A stretch of 64,000 nucleotides of DNA from Zopfochytrium polystomum (Eukaryota; Chytridiomycota; Chytridiomycetes; Chytridiales; Chytridiaceae). The stretch lies in contig JAIVFJ010000090.1 in assembly GCA_025765615.1 (NCBI GenBank), forward strand, positions 186,001 through 250,000. Reading direction: 5' to 3'. The position numbers and the translations under genes were made by a program. The notes below the pieces were generated by a model. The model searched no databases. It saw nothing but the letters and a program-made list of their open reading frames with translations, and was not told where the DNA came from. Below, in pieces: positions 2 through 38,338 of this stretch (position 1 is its first letter; each line of letters begins with the position of its first letter).

Positions 2-1674
2 CAGCCGGACACCGATGACAGAGGAAATAATCCTGGCATCTTGCCGGGAGAAATTTACCTGGACACCCATCGCTACAGCTACGCGCACTTTGGCATCCAC
101 ACAAATGTCACTTGGCTCGAAATTGCGCGCGACTTGGCGCGGAACACTTACCTGGTGGGCAAAAAAAAAACATTCCCTAAGTTTGAGATTCTTGAGTTTG
201 CGACTGATTCATTTCTTTCGCCGTGAATTGAAGAACTGGATGGGGAAATCGCATCTTAATCAGCCAAACGCTCCTGCAATGGAAGGTTACAATTACGAGA
301 CTCAAGCTCGTTTGGTTCTGTGGAATGAAATAGGCGCCACGTTCAAACGAGGGTTCTTCTCCAAAGTTCGCACTGGTACCCAGTCTCCTGGTATCGTTAT
401 CGTGGAGAGGGGACAAGTTCTTTACAAAGTGAGTGGGCTTTTTTCGCGAGTCTTTCTTGTGCTGAAGGTTCTTCTAGCACGTGGTGAAGGATCAGTATCG
501 GCCGGTGCCGCAGAACACGGCAGAACTGTCAGAAGCACTCCTCTGTAGTTACGACAGTGTCCAGGGCATCGACTCTGTCGTTGAAGAGGGGCTGCGTCGT
601 TTTATGGAATCGCTCCAGCACCGCGACACGGCAGGAAATGTTCCAAAAAGCGAGCTCGTTGTTCGATCTGTCCTCGGGAAAGGTCTCGAATCTGAAGTAT
701 ACAAGTGCGACTGGAGAGGCATGGCAGTTGCCGTAAAGAGCTACACCGTTGCGGCAGAGGACTCGGAGGCCGCTTTCAATATTACTATGACTTCCTTCTC
801 GACCGAGGCAGCCCTTCTAATGTCACTGCGACACCCTAATGTTCTTCAACTGATGGGTTTCGGTTGCGAGCCTCCTTTTCGCCCGTTCCTCGTCAGCGAA
901 TTCATGCCGCGCGGCTCACTTTTCGACGTGCTGGCGAACCGGAGCATAGAATTGACCCCAGAACTGAAGAAGTCCATGCTGATGGATGCGGCCAAGGGCA
1001 TGCAATTCCTCCACAAGTCGGGCGTTATTCACCAGGACCTGAAATCCCTCAACCTGCTAGTGGACGAAGACTTCACTTGCAAGGTCGCAGATTTCGGCAT
1101 AGCAAAAGTCACCGGACGCGGGAAGAGGCGGCGTGTCGTGAAGGAAGTGCTTGAAGCTGCACGGCGTCGCCGCGGGTCAGGCAACAACCCAAATGATCCG
1201 GTCGGCAGCGTGACGGGACAACCAGCGGGCGGGCCCAGCAGCGGCCACGCAGCCGGCGCCGGCGCCGGCGGCAATTCGGGCGGGTTCCGCTCAACCAACA
1301 CGTCGGGCTCTGACCGGCTGCAAGACAGCGCGAACGACAGCGACGTCAAGGCGCACAGAGGAACAATCCACTGGATGCCGCCCGAGGTCATGGTGCCCGT
1401 GCCGCCCCCTCCCACCACCAAGGCCGACGTCTTTGCGTTCGGCGTCATTGGCTGGGAAGTCGCCACCCGCGGGCAGCCGTGGCCTGGCGTGGCGCCCGCC
1501 GACGTTTGCGAGGCGGTTGTCGCCGGTTACAGGATGCCATACCCGGATCCGCGCAACACGGCCGAGCAAAAGTACTGGCGGCTCGTTGTCGACTGCTGGG
1601 ACCAAGATCCGAAAAAGAGACCAGAGTTTTCGAAAATCGTCAGCAGGCTGTCCTGGTTAACGATTCCTGGATGA
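2..1674 (+). CDS. Thioredoxin/peroxiredoxin-like domain fused to TKL kinase (paralog 1, 5'-truncated)
   Basis: Proposed exons are 2-154, 234-428 and 478-1674, all joined in phase 0; the N-terminus lies outside the window. Exons 1-2 encode the end of a PF13911-type (AhpC/TSA antioxidant, PRXL2-like) fold: PGEIYLD followed by an F-G-[IL] stretch, then PGIVIVERGQVLYK. The last exon is a complete TKL kinase: glycine loop GKGLESEV, VAVK lysine near 736, catalytic loop VIHQDLKSLNLL (HQD in place of HRD), DFG, a low-complexity insert of about 80 residues in the activation segment, then WMPPE and DVFAFGV. Exon junctions match the paralogs at 22937-25605 and 36279-39690. By family knowledge the kinase should phosphorylate Ser/Thr; a redox-sensing role for the first domain is inference. 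The reading frame is intact across the visible part. Confidence 0.86.
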
Positions 1675-22936: not shown

Positions 22937-25605
22937 ATGAGAAGCGATCACAGCTTGGTCAATGACGGAGGACTCTCTACCGCAATCATGTCGCCCAAAG
23001 CATCCTCAACCGTCCCCACAGCTTCGGCGCTGACGGCTGCAACCAATCCTGAGGATCCTCATCGCGTGCACCGCGTGCCTGCTGGAAACGAAAGCATGGC
23101 CCCACCTGCCGCTGACGGGTCCCACGCGAAAGCTAGCTTTCGGGCAATGTCAAGCGCAACCTTGGCTTCCTCCTCATCATCGTCGTCCCCTCTTTACTAT
23201 TTTGGGTCCGTTACGAGCTCGGAGAGCTCTGAAAGTGGAGAGGGGGACCGCGTTGCTGCTCTTGCTCCTCAAAATGTTGTCATCGTTTCAAGCGACGTGT
23301 CCGCTAATCAAGTTCAAGTGGTGGACACTCCCATCGCCAGCTATCCCTGCCAATCTGCCCTTCCTACCGCCTCTGCAGCTTCCTCAAGCCAGCAGCCCCA
23401 GCCGCAGCAGCAGCTCCATCCACAGGCCCCGCTCCGCGATGAAGTCCGCTCCCTATCTACCGAGTACCTATCAGGCGGCACTAATGCGACGACAAACTCA
23501 TCCAACTCGACATCCTACGTATCCAACTCGTCGTCGCGGCCGCAGCAAGATAGTCAAGTGGACTGGCAGGGTGCCGAGAGTGTCTATGTCACCAGCCTTT
23601 CCGGCAGGAGGCGTTCCATCAGCTCGATTTGTGGAGACCAGCGGACAGCTTTGGTCTTCCTCCGTCGGTTCGAGTGCGGCACTTGGTAGCTGTCTTTCCC
23701 TTGTCTTCATTTCTTTAATTTTTTTCGATGGATCGATCGACACTCTGTTGACTCACCGTCGTGCTTTGCACAGCGTCTCGTACCTGATCCTCTTCTCATT
23801 GCTGCGGCCAGTGCTGATGGATGCCAACATTCGTACAGTCTTCATCACTTGCCATGCTGACCTCATTGAGGTCCAAACCTTCCTGATGAGCTTTGCGTTC
23901 TGGCTAAAAACCCTGCCAAGGCCCAGCGGAACTCCAACGTCCACAGTCCTGCCAGGTGAAATCTACCTCGACACGGAAAGAGTTAGCTATCGCTTTTTTG
24001 GTCTTAGAGACGGCATCGACTGGTTCGTGCAGGCTAAACGCTTCGTCCGTGCAACTTTTCTGGTAACTTCGCCTTTTGTCGCCGCTGCGATTGTCTCACC
24101 GTTGATACTGACTGATGATTTGATTTACAGAGAACCCTTGGCTTTTCTCATGTCGGCAAAAAGGGGCCACTTTGGCGTCACCGCGGCGAGCCGATGGTTG
24201 ATGTCCGATTCTTCGTCTGGAACGAAGCGCTCTCTGTTTTCAAAAAACATCCAATGAACGACGCTGCGAAGCTGCAAAGTCCTGGATTTGTTATAATAGA
24301 ACGCGGTGAAGTTCTTTACAAGGTATGCGCTTGGTGATTTCCTTTGTAAAGCAGTGTGTTCAACTCACCTCCACTACTCAGCACATTGTCACCGATATAA
24401 CACAACCACTTCCAACTGCTTCAACGAAACTGGCTCAGGCACTGTCCTGCCCTCTCGGCGAGCTTACAGACCTGGATGAGAAAATTGTCATGGGTTTGGA
24501 GAACTTTTTGGAGTCTTACGATCGGCGCGAATCGTTCGGTGCCATGTCTCCGTCTGAGCTTCAGATAGACGTGAGCCATCGGATCGGCGGGGGCGTCGAG
24601 TCGGATGTCTTCAAGTGTTATTACAAAGACTTGCCTGTGGCTGTGAAATGCTACAAGTGGAAGGGCTTCGACGCGGAGAATCTGCCATCATCTATGCCCT
24701 CTTTTGCAGCCGAAGCGGCAGTCCTTATGGCGCTTCGCCACCAGAATGTTCTGCACGTTGTCGGCTTTGGTTGCGACCCTCCCGAATATCCTTTCTTCCT
24801 CGTCACGGAACTTCTTGAACGTGGATCGCTTTTTAACGTGCTAAAGCTTGAACTCGCGAAGCGAAGGGGCTACAGTATTCCCACTGCAACTTCTTCAACT
24901 TCCTTGTCATCTTCAACGATCGTGCTCCCTAACGACGAGGATGCAGGAGTGCCCTTTGACGCAGAACGCCGTCGAAACATGCTTCTTGATATTGCCCGCG
25001 GCATGGCGTTTCTCCACACGTGCAGCCCTCCGGTCATCCACCAAGACCTGAAATCGCTGAATGTCCTTGTTGCGCGTGATTGGACTTGTAAAATTGCTGA
25101 CTTTGGCATCGCGACCTCCCTGAGCCTGGCTGCTCGCCGTCGCCGACTTGTGGAGGAGGCCATTGGACGCTGGGGTGCAAGTGGAGGCTTCACGAGCAGT
25201 GGAAGTGGCGCCGCGAGCCATGCGAGTTCAGCGTCTAATGGCACCAGCAGGCGACCCAGCGACGAGGTACCCGGCGAACACGGTGGCACAAAACAGTGGA
25301 TGGCGCCGGAGCTCATGGTCGAGGACCCGCCTGCAGCCACCACCAAGACCGACATTTTCGCATTCGGTGTCGTGATGTGGGAAATAGCCACTTGCAAGAA
25401 GCCGTGGCTCGGTCTCGGCCGAGCGGAGATAAAATTCAGGGTCAGTCGAGGGGAGAGATTGCCCGTTCCCGACAGTCCTGAGGACCCGTTTGCGTGGCCG
25501 GTTGAGTTCCACCGCCTCGTCGACGAGTGCTGGAACCAGGATCCTTCGATCCGTCCTGAATTCAGGAGAATTGTGAAGCGCCTGTTGAAGATTAGCATTC
25601 CATAA
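22937..25605 (+). CDS. Thioredoxin/peroxiredoxin-like domain fused to TKL kinase (paralog 2, complete)
   Basis: Exons 22937-23685, 23774-24062, 24131-24322 and 24382-25605 give 817 residues. Residues 1 to about 210 are Ser/Pro/Gln-rich and probably disordered. The PF13911-type thioredoxin fold follows: SLSGRRRSISSICG, then LVFLRRFECGTC (Cys247 and Cys250), VFITCHADL, PGEIYLDTERVSY, FFVWNE and PGFVIIERGEVLYK. Intron 1 splits the Cys250 codon TG|C. The TKL kinase follows, with GGGVESDV, VAVK (Lys499), VIHQDLKSLNVL (Asp632, HQD), DFG (Asp650) and WMAPEL. The activation segment has a Ser/Gly-rich insert. Intron phases 2-0-0 match the paralogs. By family, the N-domain would do thiol redox chemistry and the kinase would phosphorylate Ser/Thr. 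ATG 22988 is an alternative start. Confidence 0.9.
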
Positions 25606-26431: not shown

Positions 26432-29400
26432 ATGTCCAAGCTTGTGGCATTCAAGTATGCCGGTAAATGGAAGAAGATCAAGGTCAACCCTTCTGCTGGC
26501 TATGATCAATTGCTCTTGCACGTGGCGAAAAGCTTTGGCCTGGACTCTATTGAGTTAAATTATGAGGACCCTGCAGATGGGGAGGTGTATATCCTCAGCT
26601 CTGACGAAGAGTTGGAGGAGACATTTGAACAGAACTATAAGTGGAAGGTACTGTTTGATTATTGATGACCATTTGCTTCACACAATCTGTTAACAAGTGT
26701 TATCCATTATCCTTTTATCATGTTGAATTGTAGGTTGTTCCAAGTCAAACTTCGAAACCAGCTTGGAACCCTGGGGCGCATACAGCTGAGCTTGGGACTT
26801 CCTTTGCGAACACGACGATCACTGATCAAGCCGAGTCTTTGTTAACTCAAAGAGATGAATATGACCCGTCTCTTTTGGATAAGAAAGGCAGGAAATTTTG
26901 ACATGCTGGTAACCAACTTCATGCAACCTCTTTGATCCAGAGAAGTGGGCTGATATGATTCGTGCTGACTGGCTTTGTGCCTCAAATGCCCAGCAGCACC
27001 CTTTTTTCATCAGGTGTGTTTTTATTGCTCCATCCCATTTTCCTCATGTGCCCTATGTCAACAAGCTACTCCCATGCCTCTGAGAGAGATTTGGCAAAGG
27101 AGCTCTATCATCAGATGAAAGTGGCTCTGCTTCAAGAGTCGCAGAGGAATGACCTCTCAGATATGCCAGCGCATGCCTTCTTGGACTCCTTGTGCCTGTC
27201 ATTTGGAGGAAAGTTGGACATCAACTTTCTGTCAGGATTGCTACACTCATCAGTGATCATCCTTCTGTGCTCTGATAAATCCATGAAAGGAATGCTAAGA
27301 GCTGATGAAGTGCCGGACAACTTCCTACTGCAGGTACAAAGCTCCAAGCTGTCTTCTCTCTTCTGCATTATTGAGACTTCTTCCTTCCAGTGGGAACTTG
27401 CACTTCAAATGTGCGAGGAAAGAGGCCACACAATATTGCCCATTCTCTTATCCAGCCGTGTACTGGCCACATTGAGCGATGGGAAGCAGTGCTTGTTGAC
27501 AAGGAAGTTTAGCTCATTTGATTTTAGTCGGTTTCCTGATAAACTGCATATACACCCATTGAGTCAGAAGCGCTTGAGTGTTCGCCAGACGATAGACAAG
27601 ATTTTTGAGTTCAATGGCCCAAATGTGAACCCAGAAACAGATATGATGAAGTGAGTTGACCTGAATCATCTTTGCACGTATAAAACAAATTTGCAGAATT
27701 ATTGTAGAAGCAAGGGAAGTCCTCAATCGCCGCAAAGCAGAGCTGCAAATTTCTAGTTCAGATACTGCGCTGTCTCGAACGGATTTGTCAGAACTAGAAA
27801 TATGGCTTTCCCCACTTTGGGTTGAAATGGATGCTGAAAGAGATGCGCTTTTGAGGAACTTTCATCACGGCACTCGACAATGGCTTTTGAAGAAAGTTTT
27901 TCAATGTTTTGACCTGAAATCTTCCATCGGTACCAAATCAAGCAGGGTTGTTTGGCTGAAAGGAGTTGCTGGTGTTGGAAAATCAGTCATGGCTGCTTTG
28001 ATATCCAGAGAACTCCAAGCAGTAACAATCCTTGGCGGCCAATTCTTTTTCAAGCATGATGATGAAAAGCGGAGCAGTGCCCACAAACTTGTGACGACCT
28101 TGGCCTTTGGCCTTGCCAGATACAGTGTCCACTATGGCAGATATTTGCTACAATTTAAGCGGGAAAATCCAGATATTTTATCCATGTCTGCATTTGAGGT
28201 TATGCGGAGATTGATTGCTCAACCCTTGGTGCAGCTTGCTGATGCTGAAAAGCTGAAGAATGTAGTGGTATTTGTTATTGACGCACTGGATGAGTGTGGT
28301 TTGGTCAACAGCAGACAAGAGATACTTCTTGCATTCCAGGAGCTCAACAGACTTCTACCCGCTAATGTGAAGATCTTGGTCACTGGTCGCCCTGAGTTGG
28401 ACATTGTTGAGGCTTTTCAGACTATCCCCACGGAATCCCTTGAGCCTACTGCTGAGGAAAATGTCAGCGACCTTCTTCTATTTGCGGAGTCTGGCCTGTC
28501 ATCGTTAAGTGACGATTCTTCCATCATCGAGGAAGGATCAAGAGTCCTTGTTGAAAAGTCAGCTGGAGTGTTTGTCTGGCTTATTGCTGCTTTGAAGTTT
28601 TTGAGCAGCTCCCGCATTGACAAAATTACATTAGATGAAATATTTGCTCTGCCTGAAGGAGATAAGCTGGATGGGACAATGGATGTCATGTATGACAGAA
28701 TATTCTCTGGGATACTGGAAGCTTGTGTGCAGCAAAATCTTCAGGATCTTCTCTGCAAGGTGCTGGTTGTCATTTTCCTTGGATACGAACCTATGTCAGC
28801 TGCAGGAATAGCATTGATGCTGTCCAAAGAGGAGCCAGGCACTGTCAAGCGCTGCGTTAGAATGCTAGAGCCTGTGCTTGTCATTGAAAGCTCAGGAAAG
28901 AAAATCAGGGTGTACCACAAGTCTGTGAAAGACTACCTATTTAGCCCTACTCGCTGTTCAATTGCCGCTGTCCAGATTGATTCAAGGCTTGGACATTCAA
29001 ACTTGGCTCAACTTTGTATCAGTGCTCTGGACGAAAACCTTAGATTCAACATCTGTGATCTCCCATTCGCTGGCTTCCACAATGAGATTCCTGATTTTGC
29101 TGATAAGTTGGACAAGGGGATTCCTGAGCATTTGAAATATGCCATTAAGCACTTTTGGGAGCATTTTGTGGACTCCTCTTTGGAACCGAAGTTTCATATT
29201 GAGTCGAGTCTAAGCCGCCAATTGAATGGCTTTCTGAGGTTGCACGGACATCATTATCTGGAGGCCTGCAGCTTGATTGATGCTTTGAACGTAGTGATTC
29301 CAGCCATGACATCGATGCAGAAAGTGGCACTGGCAGATGAAGAGGAGCAAGTGGAGTGGCGCAACCTAAGTGTCCTGATGGAAGACATTAAGAGAGTTAC

Positions 29401-31468
29401 ACAAAAGTTCCTGATTCCACTGAAGTCATCAGCACTGCAAGTTTACTTTACAGCTATTCCATTCTCGCCATATGAGTCTGAATTTTACAAAATGTTTTGT
29501 GGAAAAGGTCCATCTCATATTTCCTGCCCTCGATTGCTTAAGGGCCAGCGTGCAACGTGGCCATCTTCCGTGAGTGTGTTTGAGGGTCACTCCAAAGGTG
29601 TCAATTCAGCTGCGTTCAGTCCTGATGGGCAATTTGTCGCATCGGGAAGTGATGACAAGTCAATTAAGATTTGGAATGCATCCACAGGCCAAGAGCTCCA
29701 ACAACTGGAAGGACACTCTGATTATATTGCCTCAGTTGGGTTTAGTCCAGATGGACAGCTTATTGTATCAGGGAGTTTCGATAATACTGTCAGAATTTGG
29801 AATGTGTACACAGGGCAGGAGCTGCGAAAGCTAGAGGGACACTCTGATTGGGTCTGCTCTGTTGCATTCAGTCCAGATGGACAGTTGATTGCAACAGGTA
29901 GTGCTGACCATACAGTCTGCATTTGGCCTGCATTTGAGGGTGAGGCACTTCACAGGCTGGAAGGACATTCTTATGCTGTGAACTTTACTGCATTCAGTCC
30001 TGATGGACAGTTTGTGACATCTGCAAGTTTTGATGCAACTGTCAGGATTTGGAATGCGTCCACCGGCCAACAGCTTCTCGAGCTGGTTGGTCACTCTTAC
30101 CCTGTCACCTCTGCAGAGTTTAGTCCTGATGGAGAGTTTGTGTTGTCTGCAAGTCAGGATAAAACAATCAGGATTTGGAGTGCATCCACCGGCTTGGAAC
30201 TTCTAAAGTTGATGGGACACACTGATGAGGTCAACTATGCCGCTTTTAGTCCTGACGGAAAGCTCATTGTTTCTGGAAGTAATGATAAGACTGTCAGAAT
30301 TTGGAATGCAACGACTGGCCACGAGCTGCACAAGCTTAGTGGGCACACAGATACTATTTCTGCTACCCTCTTTAGTCCCAGTGGACAACTGGTGGTCTCT
30401 GGAAGTGCTGACAAGACCATTCGAATTTGGAATCCGTTCGTGGGTAAAGAACCTACCCAGCCTGACAAACATGAGGGCTTGGTGAATTTTGCAGCCTTTA
30501 GTCCGGATGGGCAGCTCGTCGTGTCAGGAGGGTCGGACAACACAGTGCGGATTTGGAAAGCAGCTACTGGCCAACAGGTGCTAAAGCTGGAGGGACACTC
30601 TGGGATTGTCGATCCTGTGGCTTTCAGTCCAGATGGACAATTCGTTCTTTCTGGAAGTAGCGATATGACAGTCAGACTTTGGAGTGTATCCACTGGCCAG
30701 GAACTGAAGAAGCTGGAGGGGTACTTTGGAGGAGTTCTTTGTGCCGTTTTCAGTTCTGATGGACAATTTGTGGTATCAGGAGACAGCGATTATGTGGTCA
30801 GGATTCACAAGTCTTCTATTGGCGAGGAGCTGCACAAGCTGAAAGGTCACTCTCATTGGGTCTTGTCTGTTGCATTCAGTCCTGATGGGCAGTTTATTGT
30901 GTCTGCAAGTGCAGATAAGACCGTCAGGATTTGGAGCTCACACAGTGGTCAAGAAGTTTATAAGCTGAAGGGACATACAGGCAAGGTCTTATCAGCTGCA
31001 TTCAGTCCTGATGGGAAGTTTGTTGCATCTGGAAGTGATGATAAGACGGTGAGGATTTGGAACGCATATACAGGCCAGGAGCTCTACAAGCTGGAGGGGC
31101 ATATGTACTCTGTACAAAGTGTCATCTTCAGCTCCAACGGGCAATTTATTGCATCAATGGATACCTTTGGTAGAAGCAGGCTATGGAACACAGTGACAAT
31201 GTTGGAAGTGGATGATGCGTTGAGCACGCCTGTGTTGGAGAGCATAAAAGTCACGCATCACTTTCACATCAGAAATGTGTCAGGTGTGAAGCTGCAGTCA
31301 GGAAAGATTTTCCATTCACCGGTTGTTAAAACTGGTGTCTGGTTCTGTGACAATGTCAGTGGTGTTAGTTGCTGGATTCCACCTGATCATAGAGGCGACT
31401 GGCAACTGATGTCCAAAAATGTTGTTCTTACTCTTGGTGGAGGATGCACTAGTTTGATTCAGTTCTGA
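26432..31468 (+). CDS. PB1-TIR-NACHT-WD40 receptor-like protein (NLR/STAND ATPase)
   Basis: Exons 26432-26647, 26734-26887, 26941-27013, 27066-27333, 27391-27650 and 27697-31468 give 1580 residues. Residues 1-75 are a PB1 domain with the OPCA motif (NYEDPADGEVYILSSDEELE). Residues 143-290 are a TIR domain: HPFFISYSHASERDLAKELY, then FLDSLCLSFGGKLD, then WELALQM, whose Glu239 is the candidate catalytic residue. The NACHT ATPase has Walker A GVAGVGKS (413-420) and Walker B VIDALDE (517-523). Thirteen WD40 repeats cover about 950-1490. Such STAND proteins bind a trigger through the repeats, oligomerise through NACHT, and signal through the N-terminus; TIR domains often cleave NAD+. Intron 2 uses a GC donor in this model. 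The 57-base intron 4 is in frame without stops. A coding exon further upstream cannot be excluded. Confidence 0.87.
29575..31195 (+). repeat. Thirteen tandem WD40-repeat units (about 126 bases each)
   Basis: Units of 42 codons run from EGHSKGV to EGHMYSV. Each has a core AFSPDGQ[FL]-[VI]-SGS-D-TVRIW. Units 8 (DKHEGLV) and 10 (EGYFGGV) deviate at the GH dipeptide, and unit 13 has a degraded end. Nucleotide similarity between units is evident but they are not near-identical. Confidence 0.9.
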
Positions 31469-31754: not shown

Positions 31755-34700
31755 CTAAAACCTAATATGATACACCAACTCCTTGTAAACCACATTTCTG
31801 ATAGTTGGTCCACCTTTTTCTTGATTGTGTTTTGCAGTTATTATAAGATCTACTGGGGATGACACTCTTGAAAAAGCAACAAAGGACTGTCCATGCACAA
31901 ACACATCCTCCCACATATCCAGTCCAACCTTTTTCAAAGTCTGGCCTTGGGACTTGTTGATGGACATTGCAAACACAGATCGAACAGGAAATTGCTTTCA
32001 GGTGAACTCAAAGGGAAAATCCTGAATCACTGGGTTGCAGAGAGATTCTGAGAAGGAGGACTTTCTCTCCTTTCCTGCTGCCCACAACAACTTCACAGAG
32101 CAGCACATTGGGGCAGACCTCACATAGGATGAGGCATGTCCCATTGCAGAGTCCATCTGTCAGGTTGTGAAGGAGGATGAGAGGCATTCCCACTTTGACA
32201 GTTAGCCTGTGGGGGAGGCAGGCTGGAAGGACTAAGGGTGTTGAGGAACTCAGGGCTAATGAGAAGTTGCCTTCGTTGTCTCCAAATGGGGAGTCAGCAG
32301 AAAGTAGCTCCTGGGTATCTCCTGGAAGCTGCTGCACAGCATACTCATTGAACAGATGAACCACATCATTCCTTGCAGCCAAAATACACCTGTCTGCCAG
32401 GTAGGATGCAAATGCTTCCCCTGGCTGCTGAACTGCTGCACCAAAATCATCATGGACTGCCTCAAACAGTTGCCTCACATGAGGACTGCCATCATTTGCA
32501 GGAAAGGTGAGGGTGCTGATGTAGTCTGGGACAATGACATGATTGGATGCTCCATTTGGAGTGTCAAACTGCTGCAGGCTGCCCCTGCCAAGGAGACCCA
32601 ACCATCCTGCAAAGTCAATGGCATTCTGATTTGCCGTTCCCTGTGCAAGTCTCATGTTGGTTCTCAGCTCAAGCATCCTGACATGCCTCCAAAGGTTTGA
32701 GAACTTGCAAGAAGCCTTCAGGATCATGGTCTTTGTGGCATTGGACACAACAGGCGTAGTCTGCTGAAAGTCGCCCCTAAGAAGCACTTCTTTTCCTCCA
32801 AACAGGGTTTCAGCCATCGGAGGATCCAAGTGCCTGACAACATCCTACAGGACTCCGTCAATGACATCCAGAGCCAAGGAGTCGAGCATGGATATCTCAT
32901 CCAGTGCAATGAGATCAGCCAAGCACAGCTCCAGTGCACGGTCGGTGGACATTTTGATGCCAGACTGAGAGTCAGCATCAAGCTCTATGGGGATGGCGAA
33001 TTGAGAGTGGGCAGTTGTCCTGCCAGCCAGCAGAAGCGCAGCTATTCCTGAAGAAGCTACAGCATGGGCAATCCTGCCCTGACCAAAGGGGCCTTGACTG
33101 CTGCAGACTTTTGCCAAGACAGCATTGTAGACAAAGGTCTTACCACTTCCTCCCACTCCCTGAAGATAAAAAATTCAACCTTCTGGGGGAGGCACCTCTC
33201 CAGGTTGTCCACATTGCTCAACAGCATCCACCACTGCCCTGTAAGCAAAGGCCTGCTCCTGGTTGAAGCTCCTTTCAGCATTTGCCACAACAGCCTCCAG
33301 CTGCTGCTGGTTGAAGTCCAAGTTTAGCCTTTGAAAAATCAGCTGGAGCCAGCCTTCCAGCGCCAGCACAGGCTCAGGCTGGAACTCTTCCAGCTGCGGC
33401 AGGGTGGGGAAGTTGCACAGTGAGGTTGACAAACTCTGCAGGGATGCACCCAGCTGCCTCAACACAGTGCAGTACATGTGGTCTGTAGGGGCAAGATCTA
33501 GCTTCCCATGCTCCAGCTGAGCTGTGTGAAGCTGGTCAGCGACCATCTCATTCCTGAAATCATTGTAGAGAGCCCTTGGATCTGCTGGAGCATTGAAAGC
33601 AAGGAGCAATGCAAACAGCTGGATAAACTCTCTTGAGCTTGTCATCACGAGCACGCCGTGCTGCAAGCACTGAACTGCCTCACGATCATAAGCAGTCAAC
33701 CCACGTCGCACGCAGGCTTCCTGAAACGTTCCAAAGGTGGTTCCTTCCACAGTCCAGAGGTGCTCAAAAGAGTAGGGCCTCGGACGTTGGCCAGAAGAAC
33801 ATGGAGGAAATATCTCTCAGAGTCCTGAGGGCTTGCCCACATACATCCTGCCAATTGTTGCCGCAGCCTGCTGCCTCTGACACTTTGCCCACCTCGCCTG
33901 CCTCTGGTTCCAAGTGTAGTGCTCAGGAACTTCAAAGTACAACAGCCTCCTTGCATCTTCATCACGCTTGTTCAGTCTGAAGAAAGCAAGAAGGTTGGAG
34001 TCCCTCTGAAGGGCAGCAACTTAGTCAAGGTCAGCATCCTTGTCAAAGTACACTGGCTGCTGGTCAGGGAGATGCACAGCCAATCTTGTGACTGATGGTA
34101 TCTGGCCTTGCATGTCGAACTGGAATGCAGTCCATTATAATCTGCAGCCCTCAACTTTTTCTGGTTGTGGTGGATGAAATTCCGTTGGTTTGACTCCACA
34201 CAAACATAGAGGTCCACAATCAGCTGCTGAAAGAGTTTCCTGTACAGGTGTAAGTGAGAGCCCTCCCTGTACATGAGCCGGTAGCGGTAGTACTAGGACA
34301 TTGTAACAGTGGTCTGCCTCCTAACCCTTCTCTCACCACCATTGCTGCCAGCATCGTCACCATCAGAGCCATTATCACCATCTGTCCCCAAATCAAAATC
34401 CTCCTCAGGATCCGCATCATCAGCTGCAGCACCATAAGCATCCTCTGGAACATCATCGTCAGAGTCAACATTGTTGTCACTGCCAGGAGCGTGACCACTC
34501 AGTCCATCCAGATCCTGTCCTGTCCTGTCCTGATCCTGTCCAGTCTGTGGTGCAATTTTCGCAATGCTAAGCATCCAGCCTTGGTCACTGCAGGGAAAGA
34601 TCAAAGGGAGGCCAGTGAGAGGTAGCCGGAGTGTTCTGGAGGAATGTGAACCAATTTGCCATCCCACCCCATACAACAATGCTTCGATAAGCGCCTTCCT

Positions 34701-36278: not shown

Positions 36279-38338
36279 TTACTGTCCGCAATCGCTTGAG
36301 GCATTTTTGAAGTCCGGGCGTCGCTTCGGGTCTTGCGCCCAGCAGTCCTCTACCAGCCGCGTGAAATCGCGAGGCCAGTTCGCCCTCACAGGAAGCCGAC
36401 CGCCAGCACGGACGGTAGGCGCCACGTCCGCCAAGTCGATCTCTATCCAAGGCTTCTTCCTGGTAGCAACCTCCCACAAGATGACGCCAAACGCGAAAAC
36501 ATCTGCCTTTGTACTTGGTTCGGGAACAGGCCCATCGTACATGAGCTCAGGCGCCATCCATTGCAAGGTGCCACCATGCGCCGGCGAGTTTGTATCATCG
36601 CCGTCCGGGTCGACCCACTCGTCGCCGTCGCCGTCGCGGTCCTCGCTTTCCCGGTCGTCGATGTTTGACCTCCGGCCGCCGAGAAACGCGGCGACCCTCC
36701 GCCGGCGCTTCGCCACGGTCGCGGCGATGCCAAAGTCGGCCACCTTGCACGTCCAGTCCGCGGCGACGAGCAGATTCAGGCTTTTGAGGTCCTGGTGGAC
36801 CACCGCGGGCGTGCAGCCATGAAGGAAAGCCATGCCCGCCGCCGCGTCGCGGAGCAGCGCGCGCTTGCGCTCGGCCGTCAGCTCGTTCCGCGACACGTTC
36901 CGGTCCGCCAGCACGTGGAACAGGGACCCGCGCGCCATTAGCTCGTTAACGAGAAACGGCAGCGGGGCGGCGAGCTCGGCGCCGCGGCCGTGGCCAGGCG
37001 TTGACGGCTGGCCGTCGCCGCCGCCGCCCAAGCCGAACCCGAGCAGATGAATGACGTTCTTGTGTCGCAAGGACATTAGCATCGCCGCTTCGGTCGCGAA
37101 GCTCGCGAACGCGCCGCTCTGCCCGCCCGCGGCGTCGTCCATCTTGTAGCACTTGACCGCAACCGAGAGCCCCCCGCCACCGGCAGCGGTACACGTCCGA
37201 CTCTACCCCTCGCCCGAGACGCGCCTCTACGACCAGTTCGCGGCGCGGAACCGCGGCAGAGGTTTGGCGGGTCTGGACGAGACGCATAAAGTCCTGGAGG
37301 CCCTTCTCGACGACTTTCGAGAGCCCTGTGACGGAATCTTCAGGGCAGGAAAGCGCAGCGGAGAGTCCCTTTGAGGCTTGCGGGACCGTGTGTTCCTGCT
37401 GCCGGACAATGTGCTGCGAAATAGGGCCAGCGGTCAGAAGGCCGGCTTCATCTAGGGCGAGGAGGCAGCCAGCGCCGGAGTAAAAAGCTTACTTTGTATA
37501 GAATTGCGCCACGTTGGACGACAAAAATCCCAGGGGCTTGGAAGTTTGCGGACGACTTGGACGGGCTGATCTCTAAAATTGCATTCATTTCGTTGAACAG
37601 GAAGAAGCGAACGTCTTTGATGACACCGGGACGGGGCGCGCTGTCTCGGTCCGAAAGTGCGAGCTGCCCTTGTGGAGCGCGGGAATTTGAGCGGCCGATG
37701 TGGGAGCGACCGAGAAGCCTCTGCATAAGCGAGAACAAAAACAAACCCCAAAAACAGGGCGGCACGACGGTAAGTCGCAAACGCTTGAATAGACTATCGG
37801 GTGGAGCCTCGTTGCGCACGTACCAGAGCATAAACGCGCACCGCATGCCAAACGACCTGCACGGGGTTGATGATGAGGCGCAAGCCGAAAAAGGCGTAGC
37901 TCGTCCTGGAGACGTCCAGGTAAATTTCGCCGGGCATGATGCTGCTCTCGCCGTTGGCCAGCACGTTCGAGGAGGACAGCGTCGCGGGCGTGGGCGTCGT
38001 CGTGGTGGTCGTAGGCGGGGTGAGCGAGCGCAGCCAAAAGGCGAAGCTCTTGAGGAAGCCCTGGACCTCGGACAGGTTCTCGTGGCATGTGATGAAGACG
38101 GTGCGGATGTTTGAGCGCGTCAGGATGGGGCGCAGGTGCGCGAAGAGGATGATGTACGACGTGCTTTGTTTGCATGTATGTTTGTTTGTTTGTTTGTTGT
38201 TAGATTGTAGGGTTGTAGAAGTCGGGTGAATTAATCAGTCGGTCGGTCGGTCGGTTTTCACGGCCGCGGTCGATCGATCGATCGATTGGTCGATCGGTCA
38301 AGTGCAAATTGGTAAATTGGTATTTGTTGTTGTTGTAG

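Follow-up and report, generated by a model that had tools for sequence, protein, structure and literature searches.

Gene structure

In a 64,000-nucleotide stretch of the chytrid Zopfochytrium polystomum genome (GCA_025765615.1, contig JAIVFJ010000090.1, positions 186,001 to 250,000; hereafter the window), we analyzed a six-exon gene at 26432-31468 encoding a NOD-like receptor (NLR) with an unusual N-terminus, in which a PB1 domain is followed by TIR, NACHT and 13 WD40 repeats. The rebuilt exon model (26432-26647, 26734-26887, 26941-27013, 27066-27333, 27391-27650, and 27697-31468, all on the forward strand) yields 1580 aa in frame with zero internal stops. This exact rebuild and the Pfam scans confirm the architecture of the original prediction, including the intact OPCA motif of PB1, and the gene is real.

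Exon 1 (26432-26647) encodes the PB1 domain (residues 1-72), with the OPCA acids D46, D49, E51, and E60, a basic pair at K14-K15, and an alanine at position 6, the site of the beta-1 lysine. PF00564 matches it above the cut-off of 23.6 both in the exon frame (30.7 bits) and after splicing of the N-terminus (26.6 bits); a single-sequence structure model of this exon has a low predicted local distance difference test score (pLDDT, 55.5). Intron 1 (26648-26733), as placed by splice-aware alignment, is GT-AG in phase 0 after residue 72 and contains the TGA at 26663-26665. Exon 2 (26734-26887) encodes a variable linker and is followed by intron 2 (26888-26940), GC-AG in phase 1 after residue 123. 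Exon 3 (26941-27013) carries a pre-TIR motif and the first TIR strand. The TIR domain (27003-27528, residues about 145-283) continues through exon 4 (27066-27333) and ends in exon 5 (27391-27650), which holds its C-terminal part. The spliced domain reaches 27.4 bits with TIR_2, slightly under the cut-off of 28, and all four paralogue TIRs tried scored from 28.1 to 42.1 bits.

The long exon 6 (27697-31468) encodes the NACHT domain, a middle region, the WD40 repeats, and a C-terminal tail. The NPHP3_N/NACHT domain (27869-28399) exceeds the Pfam cut-offs of both profiles (NPHP3_N with 93.8 bits for 24.8, NACHT with 28.3 bits for 26.7), and its Walker A (GVAGVGKS) and Walker B (VVFVIDALDECG) motifs were both read from the sequence. 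The 13 WD40 stretches (29567-31190) have a period of 42 residues in 12 of 12 intervals. A NACHT above the cut-off with both Walker motifs, together with superstructure-forming C-terminal repeats, places the protein among NLRs and the signal transduction ATPases with numerous domains (STAND). No HET domain was found in residues 1-420, for which Pfam (E up to 1) listed PB1, TIR_2, and NPHP3_N, and a protein search with the same residues retained none of 6651 candidates at E 0.001.

A large family of paralogues

The source assembly has 80.2 Mb in 761 contigs (designated below by C numbers). It encodes chitin synthases of fungal type and a radial spoke protein of the flagellum, as expected of a chytrid, and Z. 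polystomum is placed in Chytridiales. A search of this genome with residues 1-420 of the window protein gave 171 matches, and 61 merged loci with PB1, TIR, or NACHT matches were fetched and aligned with a splice-aware protein-to-DNA aligner written for them. Forty-six of the 61, the window counted in, align to the window protein with a score above 400. Counting the loci that have an intron in the same phase, we obtained 40 of 46 for residue 123, 44 for residue 147, and 45 each for residues 237 and 323. The intron after PB1 (72 or 73) was found in 30 of them, while the others lack it, have it shifted, or have too little upstream DNA. We accept the gene model because the paralogues share the intron positions and phases. 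The GC-AG junction, whose use had been in question, falls on a family-wide intron site, being GT-AG in 39 of the 40 loci having intron 2 and GC-AG in the window only.

Of 27 TIR-centred paralogues, 25 carry PB1 with a score of at least 94, a limit chosen after the scores were known (the next lower values are 77, 67, and 55), and none of 46 reverse-complement controls exceeds 64. In L011 (67) and L020 (55) it is not clearly present. Pfam found 46 PB1 places in the genome, 26 of them with TIR or NACHT downstream on the same strand. With five further PB1 places from the own-genome search, all followed by TIR, the proportion becomes 31 of 51 among the matches listed. A TIR lies within 1500 bases of PB1 in 26 of the 51 places against 0.04 expected by chance, places matching the NACHT side only being excluded from the TIR list. 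The distance from PB1 to NACHT varies from 1223 to 1396 bases in the 22 cases with NACHT among the matches listed. We kept near-identical loci (C66/C191, two on C83, two on C18), which are perhaps haplotype copies, so the counts are of loci and not of independent genes. The tree, the residue counts, and the counts of TIR and NACHT departures given below comprise 35 of the 46 aligned loci plus C542; 11 with a weak, missing, or irregular PB1, or with PB1 beyond the fetched DNA, were omitted.

Judging from these loci, the window gene belongs to a large chytrid family of PB1-TIR-NACHT-WD40 NLRs. A separate PB1 transcript ending at the TGA at about 26665 was considered and rejected in view of the conserved introns and spacing, and of deposited models that run from the N-terminus into the TIR. 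A second NACHT set with many copies and open frames of about 405 aa was also seen (contigs C18, C67, C436, C428, C418, C57, C98, and C19).

The locus could instead encode two proteins, a PB1-TIR ending at the TGA of intron 5 and a NACHT-WD40 that is a second gene or isoform. Retention of intron 5 (27651-27696) leads at once to a TGA (27652-27654), and the deposited sister models P0002 and P0003 stop at the exon 5/6 boundary. Moreover, two NACHT-WD40 models marked as partial, P0020 and P0022, come from contigs with lengths of 202728 and 534328, equal to those of P0002 and P0003. Against this, 45 of 46 loci have intron 5 at an unchanged position and in the same phase, P0001 and P0007 continue across the junction, and P0032, P0034, and P0080 of Nowakowskiella each hold TIR, NACHT, and WD40 in one protein, which makes two separate proteins very unlikely. 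A short PB1-TIR form made by retention of intron 5 is conceivable, since read-through stops immediately and two deposited sister models end there.

The TIR domain and its catalytic position

A profile of 12 TIR sequences (the window, one paralogue, six database proteins, and four chytrid segments) matched Roq1 (2.6e-10) and SARM1 (6e-10) in the PDB; neither an earlier TIR profile (A1) nor the TIR of one paralogue had found a TIR there. In the printed alignment (pDNvlLEwelAL with kDWVHKEIVTAL of SARM1), residue 237 of the window stands opposite SARM1 E642, which we take to be the catalytic glutamate. The title of PDB entry 7cm7 names Sarm1 E642A, and in Roq1 the last Glu of WCLEE pairs with the same position. 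A structure model of the deposited sister P0002 matches PB1 and SARM1 TIR folds, so that the support for the fold comes from this sister.

Residue 237 is a glutamine in the window (CAG, 27331-27333) and a glutamate in all 35 other paralogues (GAG in 25, GAA in 10). Glutamate also occupies this position in 17 of 17 ungapped rows of alignment A3 and 11 of 11 other rows of A5, two alignments that overlap. Two further changes accompany it: W198 is Leu in the window alone among 36 paralogues, and Thr replaces D251, which 34 of the 36 retain. A SARM1-like TIR that cleaves NAD+ (NADase) has Glu at the E642 position, where the window has Gln237. The window copy has therefore probably lost NADase activity, while the family as a whole has probably kept it. 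The NAD+-cleaving potential originally attributed to this protein was thus not borne out for the window copy.

One observation weighs against the loss of activity: E239, two residues away, is Glu in 36 of 36 paralogues. The window TIR could then be an active NADase using E239 or another acid, and the resemblance of the family TIR to SARM1, in both the profile and the P0002 model, would fit this as well. Among 11 relatives, however, position 239 is A, Q, R, or N in four, all with Glu at 237, and the equivalent of E642 is Gln in the window alone, where W198 and D251 have also changed. We consider an active enzyme quite improbable. E239 had been a candidate for the catalytic residue from its conservation within the family, and was rejected, since Glu is better conserved at 237 than at 239 among distant TIRs and the alignment with SARM1 singles out 237.

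PB1 surfaces and candidate partners

The nearest solved PB1 by profile is that of plant NBR1 (E 0.0018). According to PMC6978347, the polymer contact of p62 and AtNBR1 joins a double-arginine finger to the OPCA acids, assisted by the beta-1 lysine. The window PB1 has the OPCA acids of type A domains. In the alignment with AtNBR1 (6tgn), R19-R20 stand opposite K14-K15, which are, with Lys for Arg, a candidate for the tandem basic pair of beta 2, the polymer-driving feature of type AB domains. The beta-1 lysine of type AB is missing, as K11 of AtNBR1 aligns with A6. K8 was considered as a type B lysine and discarded, the NBR1 alignment placing the lysine site at position 6. Both basic residues are found in 27 of the 36 paralogues, D46 with acids at 51 and 60 in 26, and both faces in 23. 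The deposited family members P0003 and P0006 have Arg at the lysine site, unlike the window, which suggests unequal PB1 partners.

The same genome contains p62/NBR1-like candidates: L042 and L049 combine PB1 with ZZ and keep the beta-1 lysine, by eye, and L046 and L050 are further candidates by their PB1, the scanned frame of L050 holding PB1 only. The suggested link to an autophagy adaptor is thus possible for this receptor. Pushed further, PB1 would be a bait or adaptor arm directed to a p62/NBR1-like autophagy receptor or a polarity scaffold, and not to sister receptors. Integrated baits are usually sporadic, and here PB1 is retained in 25 of 27 TIR-centred members, a pattern that speaks against a bait. 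On the other hand, the closest solved PB1 is from NBR1, and the beta-1 lysine of L042 and L049 could be bound by the OPCA face. There is also a precedent in human NOD2, whose oligomers are stabilised by p62, in that case via the nucleotide-binding domain of NOD2 (PMC3577775). We regard this exclusive bait or adaptor role as rather unlikely and favor a PB1 that aids assembly among the receptors.

Sequence evolution and probable segment exchange

The closest paralogue is C542 (L071), whose alignment takes two frameshift steps near the C-terminal end. Identity with the window is 56/73 in PB1, 123/183 in TIR, 127/178 in NACHT, 256/549 in WD40, and only 12/43 in the exon 2 linker. The ratios of nonsynonymous to synonymous divergence (dN/dS) in this pair are 0.07 for PB1, 0.10 for TIR, 0.15 for NACHT, and 0.28 for the linker, with dS saturated. 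The corresponding ratio of proportions (pN/pS), pooled over 293 non-independent pairs that include loci with a weak PB1, is 0.43, 0.31, 0.29, and 0.84, respectively; in single close pairs, PB1 ratios exceed 1 on few changes.

These data bear on the possibility that the gene is in early decay, the lost Glu being a result of relaxed selection and not of a new role. At near-invariant TIR positions the window departs in 10 of 74 and C542 in 5 of 74, and the TIR tree branch is 0.33 in the window for 0.14 in C542, as expected from decay. Two other loci have 7 of 73 (C146) and 11 of 72 (C32). In NACHT, the departures are 9 of 87 in the window and 8 of 84 in C542 (the 34 of 66 for C18:514191 reflect a broken alignment in that part). 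Decay is disfavored by 1580 codons without a stop or frameshift, by the low dN/dS of PB1 and NACHT (with dS saturated), and by a PB1 branch of 0.05, shorter than the 0.27 of C542. We find decay improbable and retain a receptor with a probably inactive TIR as the better explanation.

PB1 and TIR distances are mostly concordant (Spearman 0.76, 630 pairs from 36 loci). Two pairs deviate: C147 and C549 differ in 65/201 PB1 bases and 15/546 TIR bases, and C186 and C63:297190 in 4/201 PB1, 85/549 TIR, and 5/204 NACHT bases. Since NACHT is also close in the latter pair, the TIR segment is the odd one there. Such discordance points to segment exchange among the loci.

Related proteins in other chytrids and known systems

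In a protein search with the NACHT side, 8000 candidates were scored and 1428 proteins found. Among the best 120 of 1428, Z. polystomum comes first and most are fungal NACHT-WD40 proteins; five Nowakowskiella rows have 34-36% identity and P0058 of Quaeritorhiza has 28%. We inspected five chytrid proteins and scanned the N-termini of three with Pfam. Quaeritorhiza P0058 has TIR_2 with 72.9 bits and PB1 with 18.9 bits (below 23.6), Nowakowskiella P0042 has PB1 with 15.8 bits (same cut-off) and no TIR call, and Nowakowskiella P0032 has TIR_2 with 25.4 bits (below 28) and lacks a PB1 call. The PB1 profile gave hhalign probabilities of 5.5 and 0.5 with the N-termini of P0042 and Quaeritorhiza, which are therefore only PB1-like. 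In P0032, P0034, and P0080, the TIR segment can be aligned with the window family. The Quaeritorhiza TIR gave no useful hhalign match with profile A1 and one weak TIR match in the PDB (E 0.095). TIR-NACHT-WD40 proteins therefore occur in other chytrids, with an N-terminus that is PB1-like only and below the cut-off. The domain order may be common across chytrids, and by these comparisons PB1 at the front is established in Z. polystomum only. Several tandem repeats that look ubiquitin-like, by eye only, precede the TIR in P0032, P0034, and P0080.

Like the window protein, the HET-NACHT-WD40 (HNWD) proteins of Podospora anserina (HET-E, HET-D, and HET-R) have a TIR-related N-terminal effector, NACHT, and a WD40 sensor (PMC12881547, PMC12222747). 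They differ in having HET in place of TIR and no PB1 in front, and their WD40 repeats are by definition more than 80% alike, whereas those of the window have a mean of 0.51 and a maximum of 0.69 (12 of 13 repeats). TIR NLRs have been mentioned in Chytridiomycota, the phylum of the window species (PMC9815663); the term PB1 is absent from the main text of that article, and family size and catalytic state are absent from the text examined. We found no description of a PB1-TIR-NACHT-WD40 protein in the open-licence literature searched. In wild peanut, AsTIR19 (PB1_UP2-TIR-NB-ARC) and AsTIR57 have PB1 before TIR and a STAND ATPase, as here, but these are two truncated plant proteins with NB-ARC, and PB1 is interpreted there as an integrated domain (PMC9786959). 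The claim that a leading PB1 is new holds only in part: the PB1-led NLR itself is supported, it has a PB1-TIR-NB precedent in that plant, and it is family-wide in Z. polystomum instead of a lone oddity.

SARM1 and TIR-1 differ from the window in the Glu at 642. To our knowledge, they have no PB1, NACHT, or WD40. With p62 and NBR1 the window family shares the PB1 fold (by the P0002 model), the OPCA acids, and a basic pair aligned with that of beta 2, but the beta-1 lysine is not kept in the window and the NLR has no ZZ part.

Proposed mechanism

The architecture, its conservation among paralogues, the SARM1-like TIR, the PB1 with an OPCA face and a basic pair, and the Gln in place of the catalytic Glu are read directly from sequence. 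We suggest, with a probability of roughly 0.55, that PB1 aids receptor assembly and that the window member is a catalytically dead sensor, or a brake or regulator, within the family. The WD40 repeats would sense a ligand, and NACHT would act as switch and oligomerisation module. PB1 would pair front to back with its counterparts in sister receptors, and perhaps with a p62/NBR1-like scaffold as well, thereby gathering the TIR domains, the role that SAM has in SARM1. Sisters with Glu would then cleave NAD+, and the window copy would probably join these assemblies as a sensor or brake with no enzyme activity of its own. A more tentative possibility is a PB1-gated TIR network, in which PB1 modules exchanged by recombination would decide which NLRs co-polymerise front to back, catalytic TIRs would make an NAD+-derived signal, and dead members would be the sensors or brakes of mixed assemblies.

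Viruses are a conceivable source of ligands, since a survey of mycoviruses prepared double-stranded RNA of Z. polystomum WB228 for sequencing (PMC7482067).

If PB1 acts in this way, it would join SAM and resistosome assembly as a further means of bringing TIR domains together, and the Gln of one member would offer a natural test of receptor pairs with enzymatic and non-enzymatic TIRs. Dozens of TIR NLR loci in this genome have PB1 in front (possible haplotype copies counted in), whereas a 2014 survey reported zero NLRs in chytrids (PMC4986451) and in a 2025 survey the number fell to one in some Chytridiomycota (PMC12258605). Across 12 fungal proteomes, a survey of PB1 domains described four PB1 families, none of them NLRs (PMC7051960).

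Surroundings of the gene

Directly behind the NLR, on the reverse strand (32008-33816), there are PIF1-type helicase matches (32008-32844) and adjoining frames, which are perhaps part of a Helitron-like element. The window also contains three protein kinases with PK_Tyr_Ser-Thr as the best Pfam match, at 478-1671 (+), 24310-25602 (+), just upstream of the NLR, and 36279-37202 (-).

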